Virus record (IMG/VR): IMGVR_UViG_3300025467_000009
Location: 1 to 64,000 of that record
Direction: 5' to 3' (one strand)
Length of the DNA: 64,000 nucleotides
Source of the DNA: a virus
The notes beneath the pieces were generated by a model. The model saw only the letters and a list, made by a program, of their open reading frames with translations, did not search any database and was not told where the DNA came from. The position numbers were made by a program, and so were the translations under genes. Every line of letters begins with the position of its first letter. Position 1 is the first letter of the stretch. Positions 2,370-17,159 of this stretch are shown here, piece by piece.

Positions 2370-4046
2370 ATGATATTTAACTCCCAGGACACTACAGAAA
2401 CTGACTTAGGCCAGAAAAAATCAGAACCTATTGGCGGTTCTACACTGGACATGAAAGTTACCGACCACATTGAAGAAGGTAAGATTAGTGTTCCAAGAAT
2501 CGGTCGGGTGTTTAACTCAAACTGGGAACCACCAACCGAACAAGATGCCATAGACGCCGACCACAAAAGCACTATGAGTTACATGAGAGCATTCCTTTCT
2601 GGTGATAATCCAGAATCAGATAAGGCTTTTAAGGCACTTGATGAACATGTTGCACAATATGGTGACAAGTGTACACAGTGTAAGAGAGTTAGAGGTGCTA
2701 AGGTGTTCAACTCACAACCCCTTAATAAAGGGGAAAGTGGGGGCTCGCGAAAAAAATTAGCGGAGTTTTCAATGCCAAGCGGAAGTCAAGAGACATTTAC
2801 GCCTGATAACTCGCACTTTAAGACACACTTTCGTCTAAACCAAGGTCCAATGAAGACCAAGTATCTAAAGACTACTAGGAAGACGGGCGAAGAACCAAGT
2901 GAACTTGCCGATGAAGCCTTTGGAATGGGTGGATTTAATGATTCAGGCCCACATCCCGCACTACTTGGAAGAACTCTTGACCAATTTTTTGGTATTAGAC
3001 TGAGGCCGAGAGTCCCGGAAGGCACGCCAATGCACAAAAAACGTGGCCTTCAACAACAAGCACTTGCAGTTAATCCAGAATTCCCTAGTATTACTGAAGA
3101 TTCAGGAAGAAATCTTGATGCACCTCATGAAGTAACCCTTGGTCACTTACTACAAACTCCTAGTTTTATGGTAAGAGATGGTGAAAATGGAACAAGAACC
3201 CTTGGAAGTACAACAGATACTGAGGGTAGAACTTTTGATGACCACCCAAGTAACGCACTTGCCCGGGGTGGAATTGTAGAAAGACGACTTTACCATGAAG
3301 CAATGGGAAGATTGTCAAGTCACCCTGATATAAAAGTTGTTGATGGTGAAATTTCTTGGACTCCAGAAGCACATAAGGCAGTTCAAGGTGAAGTTGAAAA
3401 ATATAAAAAAGATGTCCAAAGTCTTTACCATGGTAATGGAGCAACTTTGCAGGATGGAACTAGAGTTCGACCACTTTATATGTCAAAACGTGCAGCTAGT
3501 TTTATCACCGATGTTAATGAACACTTTGAGCCCCACCCAGAAGATGCAGAAAGATGGCAAACTGCAATGACTGCTTTTGGGAATGTTACTAAAGGTTCTG
3601 GAATTAGGACAATGGCCGAGAGAGCACACTCACCTTGGTCTCAAATGTATGATACTTCTTTCCAAAGAAGAGTTGAAGACAGTGATGATACTACATTAAA
3701 AGATGTTTTTAAAGAACACTTAGGAGAAAAAGGTCAACACAGGTATGTTGCAAGTGCTCCTGTAGGAAGTTTTGCTCAAGAAACAGAAAATTGGAAAACT
3801 GCACTAGGTGATAGGTTGCGTGGTAACTCCAGAGGAGCAGAAAGTAGCACACCAGAACTCACTCCTACTGAACTTGCTAGAAGTCCAAAGCCACCTAAGA
3901 CCAAAAGACAAAAAACTTTTAGAGTTGCACCAACACCAACTCCTATTGATTGGGAATCTATAAAAGGTGAAGGAACTACAGCAAAAAAGAGAACTTTTTC
4001 TTCAAAAGTTAAAAAGTTTTTCTTTAATTCCAGTAATTCCAAGTAA
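2370..4046 (+). CDS. Hypothetical protein with recurring FNS motifs, 558 aa
   Basis: I do not recognise this family. The protein is hydrophilic, with no membrane segment and a basic Ser-rich tail. One Cys pair (CTQC, 101-104) is visible. The tetrapeptide I/V-F-N-S appears at residues 2-5, 47-50 and 112-115, and the C-terminus ends in FFFNSS; the same motif occurs in the proteins at 13171 and 26871. The start at 2370 has no Shine-Dalgarno, but it fits a leaderless mRNA from the promoter-like element just upstream. Size and head-gene linkage make a virion or internal protein possible, without direct evidence. Confidence 0.6.
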   Translation: MIFNSQDTTETDLGQKKSEPIGGSTLDMKVTDHIEEGKISVPRIGRVFNSNWEPPTEQDAIDADHKSTMSYMRAFLSGDNPESDKAFKALDEHVAQYGDKCTQCKRVRGAKVFNSQPLNKGESGGSRKKLAEFSMPSGSQETFTPDNSHFKTHFRLNQGPMKTKYLKTTRKTGEEPSELADEAFGMGGFNDSGPHPALLGRTLDQFFGIRLRPRVPEGTPMHKKRGLQQQALAVNPEFPSITEDSGRNLDAPHEVTLGHLLQTPSFMVRDGENGTRTLGSTTDTEGRTFDDHPSNALARGGIVERRLYHEAMGRLSSHPDIKVVDGEISWTPEAHKAVQGEVEKYKKDVQSLYHGNGATLQDGTRVRPLYMSKRAASFITDVNEHFEPHPEDAERWQTAMTAFGNVTKGSGIRTMAERAHSPWSQMYDTSFQRRVEDSDDTTLKDVFKEHLGEKGQHRYVASAPVGSFAQETENWKTALGDRLRGNSRGAESSTPELTPTELARSPKPPKTKRQKTFRVAPTPTPIDWESIKGEGTTAKKRTFSSKVKKFFFNSSNSK

Positions 4047-4466: not shown

Positions 4467-4896
4467 CGAGGCACATGATGGAAATATTACTCACCACTAT
4501 ACTATTCATTATCCTGCTCACCCTGAGCGCACCTCCGACCCACATTACAAAGATTTCAATTCTTACAGGCAGAGAACGAAAGATACTGCGCAGTGCTCTA
4601 TTGGTCTGCATCGTAATGACTTTAGTGAATGTTCTTTAGAAAAACCTCTTGAACTCCATCATAGTCATGTTGAGTTCAGTTTACAAAATGGTGTAGACTT
4701 AAAATGGCTAGAAATCGACTACCCTGGTATCTCAGACCCAGAAAACGTAGGCGCATGGGTAGAAAGTGCCGATAACCTTGAATGGCTTTGTGAATTTCAC
4801 CACAGAGGTCATGGTGGTATTCATACCGCAGCCGCTTCTGACTTTGAAGCAGAAAAATATGTTAAGGGATTAATTATTTCCCAGGAGTCAAAATGA
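4459..4896 (+). CDS. HNH homing-type endonuclease
   Basis: A 145-residue HNH nuclease. CSIGLHRNDFSEC (46-58) gives a Cys pair, LELHH (65-68) the first catalytic His, NLEWLC (106-111) the Asn, and HHRGHGGIH (114-122) the last His cluster: the order expected for a beta-beta-alpha metal nuclease. It would make site-specific or nicking cuts in DNA, in the style of phage free-standing homing endonucleases. It sits between unrelated small genes and overlaps the next start (ATGA). Its own start lies within a hairpin overlapped by a promoter-like motif. Confidence 0.8.
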   Translation: MTVEAHDGNITHHYTIHYPAHPERTSDPHYKDFNSYRQRTKDTAQCSIGLHRNDFSECSLEKPLELHHSHVEFSLQNGVDLKWLEIDYPGISDPENVGAWVESADNLEWLCEFHHRGHGGIHTAAASDFEAEKYVKGLIISQESK

Positions 4897-5138
4897 GTAA
4901 CTGGAATAAACGTTATAATATAGAGAAAAGATCTTCTACCGCTGAATTGCTAGGACTTCTTACCCCAGCTGCAATTGTAGCTCAACCCTTTATTATGGAT
5001 AGAATTAATAAACATAATGAAAAAAGAGAGCAACAAGAACTCCCTAGTGCTATAAGCAGTGATTATATTGAACCATCAGAAAATAATGAAGAACTTCCTA
5101 GGCCTCAAATGGGTTTTCAACCAAACAAAAAGAAATAA
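4893..5138 (+). CDS. Small tagged protein with hydrophobic segment
   Basis: An 81-residue protein starting MSNWNKRY, the shared tag. A moderately hydrophobic stretch follows at about residues 19-35 (LLGLLTPAAIVAQPF), perhaps membrane-associated. The rest is a charged, Glu/Lys/Asn/Pro-rich disordered tail ending in lysines. It overlaps the HNH stop. The function is unknown; the short body makes it look like a tag plus anchor or linker. Confidence 0.6.
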   Translation: MSNWNKRYNIEKRSSTAELLGLLTPAAIVAQPFIMDRINKHNEKREQQELPSAISSDYIEPSENNEELPRPQMGFQPNKKK

Positions 5139-5183: not shown

Positions 5184-5788
5184 CATGTAAGCTAGGGCAT
5201 ATTGATGCTAAAATAGGTTGTACAGACTGTATTAACCAAGCAATGAATATTATTACACCACTTCTTCAAACTGGTCGTATACCACATTTTAAAATTTTTC
5301 GTTCCAAACCTTCAGAAAAAACACAAGAAGAAAATTCCAATACTCCAGTACAAGGAACAGTTGGAATGAAATGGTCTGAGAGATATGCTAAAAAATCTTC
5401 AAAAGAAAAAGTTTGGTACCAACTTTCTAAAAGTTTTTATGAAAAAGACATGGGTTGGATTAAAAATGCACACTGGATTGGTCCTGTAGAAGTTCCTCTA
5501 GATAGAGTTAATTTTTCTACTGAAAATACTTGGACTGCAAGAAAAGAACCAGAACTTGTAAAGAGTAAAGTCAAGAAAATTAAAAAAGGCAAAAGAAAGC
5601 CTGTAGTTCTTATTGATGCCCCAAAAAATAATAAGTATTTTATTTTAGACGGTCACCACAGAGCCTTGGCTTACAAAGAACTAGATATTCCAATAACTGC
5701 TTTTATTGGTAAGGTAAGTAAAGAAAAAGGTCCCTGGGATACTTTTCATAATAAACAAAAGCCAAAAGATCCAGAGGCAAAACTATGA
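5180..5788 (+). CDS. ParB/Srx-type nuclease-fold protein with zinc-like N-terminus and internal tag
   Basis: About 202 residues. The N-terminal 62 hold C-x3-H...C-x2-C (CKLGH, CTDC). At residue 63 an in-frame ATG (5366) begins MKWSERYA, the shared tag, with AAGGA upstream, so a shorter tagged form of about 140 residues from 5366 is equally possible. The C-terminal half is ParB-like: strand-rich lead-in, VVLIDAP, then ILDGHHRALAYKEL, the signature loop-helix of the ParB/sulfiredoxin fold, which in ParB hosts CTP and in relatives hydrolyses phosphates. There is no helix-turn-helix, so a partition role is unlikely. Confidence 0.65.
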   Translation: MTCKLGHIDAKIGCTDCINQAMNIITPLLQTGRIPHFKIFRSKPSEKTQEENSNTPVQGTVGMKWSERYAKKSSKEKVWYQLSKSFYEKDMGWIKNAHWIGPVEVPLDRVNFSTENTWTARKEPELVKSKVKKIKKGKRKPVVLIDAPKNNKYFILDGHHRALAYKELDIPITAFIGKVSKEKGPWDTFHNKQKPKDPEAKL

Positions 5789-6222
5789 ATTGGAACAGTC
5801 GTTATATTAAAGAAGCAGCTCTTGATGACACTTACAAACAATTGTTTGAAAAGTTTAAAGGGGAGACAGCATTTACTGCACCAACTGACCCTCGCCGTCA
5901 AGCTTGGAAAGAATACACTTCTACTCCTTTAAAAGATGGAACAGTTAGAGATCGGGATTATTGGTCTAACTCAGACCACATTAATCCAAATGACCTAGAC
6001 CATTCAGCTTTAATGAGGGTATGTGACAAATGGTCACCTATAATAGCAAGAGCAACCGGTGGGGACTCAAATAGTGGAGAAAGTTACCATTGGCCTGTAG
6101 CTAATCATATTGCAGAAATGAAAGATTATCACCAATCACAATTTCAACCAACTTTAAATGATGCTGTTTTTAGTCCACCACCTCACAGAGAACAAATAAC
6201 TAGAAAAAGAAGGAATCAATAA
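5785..6222 (+). CDS. Tagged hypothetical protein, 145 aa
   Basis: Begins MNWNSRYIKEAA, the shared tag followed by a helix. The remaining residues are polar with several Trp and His, have no cysteine pair, and end in a basic tail (RKRRN). I see no known domain. It overlaps both neighbours (ATGA upstream, TAATG downstream), so it belongs to the translationally coupled run 4459-6956 with the HNH, ParB-like and protease genes. Confidence 0.6.
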   Translation: MNWNSRYIKEAALDDTYKQLFEKFKGETAFTAPTDPRRQAWKEYTSTPLKDGTVRDRDYWSNSDHINPNDLDHSALMRVCDKWSPIIARATGGDSNSGESYHWPVANHIAEMKDYHQSQFQPTLNDAVFSPPPHREQITRKRRNQ

Positions 6223-15743: not shown

Positions 15744-16322
15744 GTGGACTTAATTCAGTTACTAGAAGAAAATAGATACCTTACTTGGGCGGCAGAACCC
15801 GGTGTAGGAACTGACAAAGGTGGTTACGAAGGTGAACATGACTTTGTTAAAGGATTCTATAATGAAGAGTTTAAAAAATACCAAGACAAAGAAATTAAGT
15901 TACTAGAAATTGGTATCTATGGTGGAGCATCTCTTTCACTATGGAGTAAGTATTTTACTAAGGGTCAGATTACAGGCCTAGACATTGTTGATAACATTAA
16001 TCACAAGTATCGTGGCTTAGATAGAGTAAGGATTGGTATCTGTGATGCTTACAACCCAGATGCTGTAAACCAAATGGGTGAGTATGACATTATTATTGAT
16101 GATGGTCCTCACACTATTGAAACTTTAAAAAAGTGCATTGAATATTACTTGCCTAAACTAAAAGAAGGTGGAGTAATGGTACTAGAAGACGTCCAAGACA
16201 CTAGTTGGTTCCCAATATTGCTAGATGCAACTCCTGATGAGTATAAAGATAAGACAGAGTGTATTGACCTAAGAGAAAATCTTGGTCGATATGATGACTT
16301 ATTGTTTGTAATCAGAAAATAG
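15744..16322 (+). CDS. Class I SAM-dependent methyltransferase
   Basis: GTG start with AAGGAAGAAA upstream; 192 residues. KLLEIGIYGGASLSLW is the SAM-binding motif I, GLDIVD the acidic loop end, IIIDDGPHTIE motif IV, and GGVMVLEDVQ the post-motif strand. This is the Methyltransf_24 / sugar O-methyltransferase style. The substrate could be a host surface sugar, modified to block superinfection, or a small metabolite. It lies between the tRNA genes, a usual place for cargo genes in phages. Confidence 0.75.
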   Translation: MDLIQLLEENRYLTWAAEPGVGTDKGGYEGEHDFVKGFYNEEFKKYQDKEIKLLEIGIYGGASLSLWSKYFTKGQITGLDIVDNINHKYRGLDRVRIGICDAYNPDAVNQMGEYDIIIDDGPHTIETLKKCIEYYLPKLKEGGVMVLEDVQDTSWFPILLDATPDEYKDKTECIDLRENLGRYDDLLFVIRK

Positions 16323-16328
16323 TTTTAT

Positions 16329-16360
16329 TCCCTGGTAGCTCAATTGGCAGAGCAGCTGAC
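16329..16360 (+). pseudogene. 5' half of an interrupted tRNA (Lys-like)
   Basis: TCCCTGG (acceptor), TA, D-arm GCTC-AATTGGCA-GAGC, A, and the 5' anticodon strand GCTGA, then it stops. Its acceptor and anticodon strands pair fully with 17014-17020 and 16987-16991, about 630 bases downstream (12 bp in total, two wobbles). Between them lie an HNH gene and tRNA-Asn. Confidence 0.7.
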
Positions 16361-16362
16361 AA

Positions 16363-16391
16363 TGTAACTCAAAGTCAAAGCTACTATAGTG
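16363..16391 (+). promoter_or_regulatory. Putative promoter (TGTAAC-N16-TATAGT) ahead of HNH gene
   Basis: TGTAAC (16363-16368), 16 bases, TATAGT ending at 16390. It overlaps the left arm of the hairpin at 16367-16415. It shares AGTGG with the element in front of the other HNH gene (4428-4456). Confidence 0.45.
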
Positions 16392-16415
16392 GTATCTACT
16401 ATTTAAGGTTTGAGT
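16367..16415 (+). promoter_or_regulatory. Hairpin abutting the HNH start codon
   Basis: ACTCAAA (16367-16373) pairs with TTTGAGT (16409-16415), which ends at the base before the ATG. A nested hairpin ATAGT/ACTAT (16386-16402) lies inside. The AAGG ribosome site (16405-16408) sits within the loop next to the right arm. Confidence 0.5.
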
Positions 16416-16901
16416 ATGAGATCTACATTATGGGTTTGTGAACTAGAGGGCTGCAATAATACTTTTTTAAGGTACCCTTACCAAATTAGGCAGGGGTCCA
16501 AAAGATACTGTTGTCAAAGCCATTCTACTCTAGGAGTAAAAAGGAATCCAAGTACTCCTAAGATTTATAATTGTAAATGGTGTAACTCTGAAACTAGAAA
16601 TTACTCACTTTCTTGTAATGAGTGCAAAAGGATAGTTGATAGACTAAGACAAAATAATATAAACTATGAATCTCCAGAAATTTATTATAAACTATTAAAA
16701 ATTCAAGATAAAAAGTGTTCTATCTGTAAATCAGAAATAGGTTCTACAGTACATAAAAATTTAAGTATTGACCACGACCATAAAACAGGAAAAATTAGAG
16801 GTTTACTTTGTACTAGTTGTAATAGACAGTTAGGGTGGTACGAAAATAAAAAAGAATTTGTAGAAAAGTATTTACAGAATAATCCTTCCGCTCTAGCATA
16901 A
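16416..16901 (+). CDS. Endonuclease VII-type HNH nuclease
   Basis: 161 residues from the ATG at 16416 (AAGG 7 bases upstream; a TTG at 16410 would add two residues). Zinc clusters: CELEGC...CCQSH, CKWC...CNECK. The catalytic core is CSICKSEIG, then IDHDHKTGKIRGLLCTSCN, the recombination endonuclease VII signature, and a final QLGWYE. These enzymes cut DNA as free-standing homing endonucleases or resolve branches. The last 15 bases overlap the 5' end of tRNA-Asn, and the gene interrupts a Lys-like tRNA, so it is probably a mobile cassette. Confidence 0.85.
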   Translation: MRSTLWVCELEGCNNTFLRYPYQIRQGSKRYCCQSHSTLGVKRNPSTPKIYNCKWCNSETRNYSLSCNECKRIVDRLRQNNINYESPEIYYKLLKIQDKKCSICKSEIGSTVHKNLSIDHDHKTGKIRGLLCTSCNRQLGWYENKKEFVEKYLQNNPSALA

Positions 16902-16958
16902 TGGCAATGCAACAAGCTGTTAACTTGTCAGATCTGGGTTCGAGTCCCGGGGGCGGAG
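16887..16958 (+). tRNA. tRNA-Asn (GTT)
   Basis: Acceptor TCCGCTC/GGGCGGA, D-stem GCAT/ATGC, anticodon stem ACAAG/CTTGT with loop CTGTTAA (anticodon GTT), T-stem CTGGG/CCCGG around TTCGAGT. All arms are complete. Its first 15 bases are also the end of the HNH gene. Confidence 0.9.
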
Positions 16959-16986
16959 CAATTTCCTCATATGGTAATTCGTTTAA

Positions 16987-17024
16987 TCAGCGGGTTCCTG
17001 GTTCGAGTCCAGGCTGGGGAGCCA
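16987..17024 (+). pseudogene. 3' half of the interrupted tRNA (Lys-like)
   Basis: 3' anticodon strand TCAGC, variable GGGTT, T-arm CCTGG-TTCGAGT-CCAGG, acceptor CTGGGGA, G and an encoded CCA. The bases before TCAGC (CGTTTAA) would supply anticodon TTT, hence Lys-like, but the invariant U33 is G. No acceptable 5' half exists in the 28 bases after tRNA-Asn. Confidence 0.7.
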
Positions 17025-17025
17025 C

Positions 17026-17096
17026 TCCGAGGTGGTGTAATGGCAGCACAGGAGACTTTGAATCTCTTAGTCTTGGTTCGAGTCCAGGCTTCGGAA
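17026..17096 (+). tRNA. tRNA-Gln (TTG)
   Basis: Acceptor TCCGAGG/CTTCGGA, D-arm GTGT/GCAC with AATGGCA, anticodon stem GGAGA/TCTCT with loop CTTTGAA (anticodon TTG), T-arm CTTGG/CCAGG around TTCGAGT. It starts 2 bases after the CCA of the interrupted tRNA. Confidence 0.9.
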
Positions 17097-17130
17097 CTAT
17101 TAATTCTTAAAAAATCTGGAAAAGAAACAT

Positions 17131-17159
17131 TTAAAACAATCTGTTTCTTAAACTTAGTA
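17131..17159 (+). promoter_or_regulatory. Weak putative promoter (TTAAAA-N16-CTTAGT)
   Basis: CTTAGT ending at 17158 fits the -10 of the family; the -35 (TTAAAA) matches TGTAAA at four of six positions, with a 16-base spacer. It would start transcription after the ATG at 17159, supporting the later start at 17213 for the next gene. Confidence 0.35.

Follow-up and report, generated by a model that had tools for sequence, protein, structure and literature searches.

A phage tRNA-Asn gene interrupted by a nuclease gene and a second tRNA-Asn gene of the same anticodon: a probable homing cassette with its own replacement tRNA

The window analysed here comprises 64,000 nucleotides (positions 1 to 64,000) of the 132,935-base IMG/VR virus record IMGVR_UViG_3300025467_000009, whose major capsid protein shows 61-64% identity to those of Mycobacterium cluster-C-type myoviruses and Rhodococcus phage E3. 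Between a methyltransferase-like gene and an intact tRNA-Gln, this window contains a tRNA gene that is broken in its anticodon loop by an insert carrying an Endonuclease VII-type nuclease gene and a complete tRNA-Asn(GUU) gene (Table 1). The interrupted gene, termed here the resident or type A, is itself assigned to tRNA-Asn(GUU) by sequence comparison, and the complete gene within the insert is termed the cargo tRNA or type B. Around the locus, ARAGORN and Rfam call only the complete tRNA-Asn, the tRNA-Gln, and a tRNA-Asp.

Table 1. Features of the interrupted tRNA-Asn locus (positions in the window)
Feature	Position	Strand	Evidence or remarks
Methyltransferase-like gene, left neighbour	15744..16322	+	
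Interrupted resident tRNA-Asn(GUU), type A, 5' part, tRNA positions 1-32	16329..16360	+	100% identity to intact tRNA-Asn of L213/L214/L093 and L105
Insert, 622 bp, in the anticodon loop of the resident tRNA-Asn	16361..16982	+	Alignment to empty-site alleles
Endonuclease VII-type (HNH-fold) nuclease gene, 161 amino acids from ATG	16416..16901	+	Pfam PF02945, PHROG, motif alignment, open reading frame list
Complete, putative replacement tRNA-Asn(GUU), type B	16887..16959	+	ARAGORN; Rfam tRNA, 59.4 bits
Right-end linker of the cassette, AATTTCCTCATATGGTAATTCGT	16960..16982	+	Partly common to L215 (ATAATCCTCATATGGTA) and L265 (AATTTCTTTATATGGTAAATTAT)
Resident tRNA-Asn, type A, 3' part, position 35 to discriminator	16983..17022	+	40/40 identity to intact tRNA-Asn of L213/L214/L093
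tRNA-Gln(UUG), intact, right neighbour	17026..17097	+	Synteny marker versus empty-site allele L105

The same arrangement is found exactly in a contig from another sample, IMGVR_UViG_3300025413_000017, which is 99.97% identical to the window over 48 kb, and it is therefore not a one-off assembly error. Ten of the 14 single-nucleotide polymorphisms that distinguish the two contigs over these 48 kb fall within about 380 bp (15815-16193) immediately to the left of the cassette, in the methyltransferase-like gene. This clustering is suggestive of a recombination footprint compatible with homing, with the caveat that the end of one contig lies there, where a mixture of strains could contribute.

More than 100 loci (designated by L and a number) were retrieved for comparison with the flanking genes as queries, and many of these loci include the tRNA locus. 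A preliminary description of the stretch had proposed that the two flanking pieces were once one tRNA, and this is borne out by the relatives, in which both pieces are identical to parts of an intact, syntenic tRNA-Asn. A pattern search revealed such an intact tRNA-Asn(GUU) in L093 (from the same record as L214), a diverged relative in which the genes around the tRNA show merely ~65-68% DNA identity to those of the window although the tRNA parts are identical (40/40 bases with E 6e-14 for the 3' part; 32/32 tRNA bases for the 5' part, with E 1e-10 when the leader is included). Judged by these alignments, both matches are far above chance. Uninterrupted tRNA-Asn genes occupy the syntenic position in L093/L214, L213, L216 and L105, so that the uninterrupted copy which the preliminary description had suggested looking for does exist, and its reading withstands the refutation it had named (a lack of such copies); L105 reproduces the gene order of the window, namely methyltransferase, tRNA-Asn, tRNA-Gln and next gene, but lacks the insert. 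No tRNA was found at the corresponding place in the methyltransferase relatives L090-L092. With these alleles as a guide, the 3' part begins at 16983 and not, as first proposed, at 16987, while both parts are real. The Lys-like identity initially read from a residual UUU had to be abandoned, since tRNA-Asn genes are the top phage matches of the joined halves in a blast search and the intact syntenic alleles are tRNA-Asn. A further reading, in which the 3' part belongs to a complete tRNA that lacks a D-arm and starts at 16964 (where TCCTCA could pair with TGGGGA), was also rejected: its anticodon stem would have no partner, and its linker is shared cassette sequence. Compared to the empty sites, the window misses two resident bases at the insertion point, U33 and G34, and a plain join of the parts cannot restore the tRNA, as had been noted from the sequence. 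The loss of U33-G34 also led us to reject a split or trans-spliced tRNA, and the resident tRNA is best read as dead.

The nuclease gene, whose presence had been recognized from the outset, matches the Pfam family Endonuclease_7 (PF02945, E 3e-20) and the PHROG class endonuclease VII, and the catalytic motif DHDH...CN of its product aligns with those of T4 endonuclease VII and Hpy99I. The only matched nuclease families are Endonuclease VII/HNH, and GIY-YIG is not among them. Apart from the ATG, an alternative start TTG is found at 16410, and the AAGG at 16404-16407 is likely to be the ribosome-binding site. The promoter-like element claimed earlier was not recovered, as no plus-strand sigma-70-like site was found between the left junction and the nuclease start; a non-canonical phage promoter is possible. 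The nuclease part of the insert has a GC content of 30% versus 39% for the window. The stop codon of the nuclease gene (TAA, 16899-16901) lies inside the first 15 bases of the cargo tRNA, and there is a single nuclease in the cassette, with none on the far side of that tRNA.

The complete tRNA-Asn in the insert, correctly described before, has the same anticodon as the resident, so that the element contains a counterpart, predicted to be functional, of the gene it interrupts. Types A and B are only 67% identical and differ in both strands of the anticodon stem, and the cargo tRNA is therefore not a copy of the resident; it keeps G73 and GUU, and it is the sole tRNA-Asn among the seven tRNA matches in the whole record. 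No exact-pattern match to type B was found in bacterial genome contigs. Elsewhere in the record of the window (L007 1498-1587; record positions 121785-121871, minus strand) lies a tRNA with an unusual anticodon loop, reported by ARAGORN as tRNA-??? (taca). The features of integrase-type tRNA elements are absent from the insert, which has no integrase, and whose junctions show the two-base loss and not a repeat.

We found close relatives of the type-B tRNA-Asn in four loci (the window, L215, L264 and L265), each with an adjoining piece of type A. In L215 (IMGVR 3300032241_002115) the same resident tRNA-Asn is broken in the D-arm with loss of GCA, and the order is the 5' part of the resident, an HNH gene, a type-B tRNA-Asn with 86% identity to that of the window, the linker TCCTCATATGGTA (partly common with the window), and the remainder of the resident. 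The L215 nuclease shows no meaningful similarity to that of the window (best BLASTP E 0.009 over 33 amino acids), so that related tRNA-Asn genes are accompanied by an Endonuclease VII gene in one case and by an unrelated HNH gene in the other; both nucleases end with SALA* inside the cargo tRNA. In L265 a resident 3' part with a T-arm unlike that of the window comes after type B, and the position of the junction coincides to the base with that of the window. In the tRNA-Asn version of L264 the nuclease is deleted. A search for the same gene neighbourhood in isolates returned nothing, and a scan of the tRNA regions of Myrna, Dorin and Moab revealed orphan T-arms, but no clear bipartite tRNA with same-isotype cargo.

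Analogous arrangements are present at tRNA genes of three other isotypes. In L266 and L264 the 5' and 3' parts of a tRNA-Gln gene enclose, in this order, an intact HNH gene (225 amino acids) and a complete tRNA-Gln, inside which the nuclease frame terminates. L232 shows this arrangement with the nuclease reduced to a stub, L207 and L260 retain only the cargo tRNA-Gln and the 3' part, L212 has a 5' part and another tRNA-Gln, and L246 represents the empty site. For tRNA-Ile(UAU), L213/L214 and L184/L244 contain a truncated Endonuclease VII gene (in L184/L244 identified by eye from its end, GWLENNKESIFKYLNL), a complete tRNA-Ile, and the 3' part of an older tRNA-Ile that is intact in L215, L216 and L211; in L217 only the tRNA-Ile and the 3' part are found. 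The tRNA-Pro case, L271, comprises a 5' part, a complete tRNA-Pro and, between them, an intact Endonuclease VII gene with 38% identity to the window nuclease over its length. One-sided or decayed forms are thus seen at all four isotypes (Asn, Gln, Ile, Pro), and nuclease stop codons lie inside the cargo tRNA in the window, L215, L266, L264 and L271. In Enterococcus phage 113 (L275) we also found an HNH gene (2853-3680; 41% identity to the L266 nuclease) and an Endonuclease VII gene (5297-5832), each apparently between complementary tRNA halves; this phage differs from the window in that no complete tRNA lies between the halves.

The tRNA arrays of these loci contain several additional features. 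A ROOL RNA is present in L275 at 4487-5073, near the two apparently interrupted tRNA genes. In L212 (7430-7789) tRNA-Gln and tRNA-Ile are separated by a further HNH gene, which has a start and a stop of its own and adjoins the 5' fragment of an older tRNA-Gln. In L232 (4831-4912) a complete tRNA-Ile is followed by two successive 3' tRNA fragments, one Ile-like and the next CAU-anticodon-like (i.e. tRNA-Met or a lysidine-type tRNA-Ile), as if replacements had been layered. In L184 (11244-11330) a 5' part comes immediately after a tRNA 3' part, and the acceptor strands of the two appear complementary (TCGCCCA/TGGGTGA); the pair looks like a permuted tRNA and could represent two remnants. Between tRNA genes of L215 (7764-7852), and also in L213, L214, L216 and L217, there is an inverted-repeat-rich element of ~90 bases (AGGAAGGATGCCC...GGGTGCTGACTCCTTCCT) with apparent compensatory differences among relatives; it has no Rfam match and is absent from the window.

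Analysis of the orphan tRNA fragments reveals that they tend to adjoin a complete tRNA of their own isotype. This holds for 15 of 17 fragments, whereas the composition of the individual arrays predicts 4.7 (Poisson-binomial P 2e-7), for 7 of 9 in a reduced set intended to restrict common ancestry (P 0.004), and for all 5 distinct insertions with both parts flanking (P 0.003); these P values are rough, because the cases are hand-curated and related by ancestry (through the type B tRNA and the Gln-linked HNH gene). The two misfits are the L184 fragment after tRNA-Asn and the CAU-type fragment after tRNA-Ile in L232.

In our opinion the cassette is probably a free-standing homing endonuclease element that carries its own same-anticodon replacement for the tRNA gene it breaks. 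According to this scenario, during co-infection the nuclease would cut the resident tRNA-Asn gene in the anticodon region, and the break would be repaired from the DNA of the donor phage, in which the nuclease gene adjoins a diverged tRNA-Asn gene that has this anticodon too. The resident would thereby be reduced to two dead pieces, and the cargo tRNA, if aminoacylated and active, would take over the lost function. Since the broken tRNA and the cargo share the anticodon, compensation is attributed most simply to the insert itself and not to a host tRNA, as had been suggested. The cargo would be too diverged to be cut itself, homing would be biased towards excess inheritance of the cassette, and deletion of the cassette would be costly owing to the cargo tRNA. 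Later decay may have truncated the nuclease (L213, L184), deleted it (L232 and the tRNA-Asn version of L264), or left a tRNA with a fragment (L217, L207, L265).

An alternative that had been proposed to explain survival of the resident gene is that the insert is an intron, of group I/II or of another type, and that the tRNA-Asn is spliced back to function. In its favour, the halves are undecayed and able to pair, and self-splicing introns with encoded nucleases are known in tRNA genes, according to a review (PMC3984707). Against it, the Rfam group I/II intron models gave no match at E<=10 in the region 16250-17150, nor at curated thresholds in the sister loci. Excision fails to restore the exon sequence of the empty-site alleles, and no choice of ends yields the 7-base CUGUUAA loop, so that splicing would not yield a normal tRNA-Asn. 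Moreover, the insertion in L215 breaks the same tRNA at a different site with a different loss, and the product of splicing is already supplied by the cargo tRNA-Asn. We regard the intron explanation as largely refuted and give it almost no credence.

A more serious competitor is ordinary recombination within tRNA arrays, by which a segment containing a nuclease and tRNA-Asn was pasted illegitimately into the resident gene, with the nuclease as a bystander and with only same-isotype replacements surviving selection. Short identities among tRNA genes (e.g. the CTGTTAA loop) can seed such events, and the orphan fragments without an adjoining nuclease in L265, L217, L207 and L260 indicate that this process could produce part of the pattern. 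These one-sided cases weigh against a homing cassette, together with the roughness of the P values, the two misfits to the isotype rule, and the apparent insertions in Enterococcus phage 113, which lack cargo and therefore suggest that cargo is not obligatory. Recombination of this kind does not readily account, however, for the precise location of nucleases of three lineages, intact or decayed, between tRNA parts, with reading frames that run on into the cargo tRNA, in the window, L215, L266, L264, L271 and L213, nor for the identical anticodon-loop junction in the window and L265 despite the difference of their resident alleles in the T-arm, and we consider it unlikely as the main explanation. 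It could also be argued that the cargo tRNA-Asn was selected mainly as an anti-defence gene, i.e. as a diverged tRNA that survives a tRNA-cutting defence of the host and moves as useful cargo rather than as a rescue. The divergence of types A and B in both strands of the anticodon stem would agree with this, as would the finding that phage T6 defeats the tRNA-cutting Septu system with a tRNA-Tyr amplified by SegB (PMC13096335). By itself, this proposal leaves unexplained why the target of insertion nearly always has the same isotype, and it appears to us quite improbable.

The homing cassette proposed here resembles several known systems without coinciding with any of them. SegB of T4/T6 is a GIY-YIG homing endonuclease located in a tRNA cluster; it cleaves within tRNA genes and favours the inheritance or amplification of tRNAs (PMC2988022; PMC13096335). 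The window nuclease is likewise free-standing in a phage tRNA array and is predicted to cut inside a tRNA gene, but it has the Endonuclease VII/HNH fold. SegB itself is flanked by intact tRNAs, and it has not been described to disrupt a tRNA for which it also brings in a replacement with the same anticodon. In the homing endonuclease gene islands (HEG-islands) two or more nucleases bracket whole genes or operons without discrete borders (PMC10448857). They share with the present loci the movement of cargo by homing nucleases and the interchange of nuclease families around the same cargo, whereas the window cassette has one nuclease and one tRNA inside the counterpart of the cargo, which it destroys, and no bracketing pair. 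Lacking both a GIY-YIG domain and bracketing nucleases, it thus fails a defining feature of the SegB family and of HEG-islands, respectively. MobE in the nrdA gene of phage Aeh1 is another free-standing homing endonuclease gene inside a useful phage gene. The split NrdA halves of Aeh1 stay functional. The tRNA halves of the window, in contrast, cannot function, and a replacement is carried instead. On the basis of a homing-type nuclease domain with its catalytic motif and a site that is uninterrupted in nuclease-less alleles, the window cassette is best called a candidate free-standing homing endonuclease gene. As nuclease genes within tRNA genes appear to occur without cargo in Enterococcus phage 113, the new element here is the same-anticodon cargo; in the literature on disrupted or truncated tRNAs with phage homing nucleases, where coverage was thin beyond freely accessible papers, we found no account of such an architecture.

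The closest functional parallel is provided by the engineered cleave-and-rescue and home-and-rescue drives, e.g. the CRISPR-based HomeR in insects (PMC7968924), in which a nuclease is directed at an essential gene for which the element also brings a rescue copy. The window element differs in being natural, in residing in a phage and acting on a tRNA, and in being known from genomic evidence only. We see roughly even chances that it represents a general class of self-compensating homing elements of phages, in which a tRNA-destroying nuclease is physically linked to a same-anticodon tRNA that has diverged and is proof against the nuclease. Such elements would have been assembled repeatedly from different nuclease families with tRNA-Asn, -Gln, -Ile or -Pro as cargo, would constitute a naturally evolved home-and-rescue (addictive) gene drive, and would be a main cause of tRNA turnover in phage arrays. 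Home-and-rescue drives have been presented as engineered; a natural version, if true, would illustrate how selfish nucleases can enter useful genes and yet leave their host alive, and how they become hard to lose. It would also explain the nucleases, half tRNAs and oddly diverged same-anticodon tRNAs that fill phage tRNA arrays, and it predicts that in any such array the isotype of an orphan tRNA piece should be that of the complete tRNA beside it.
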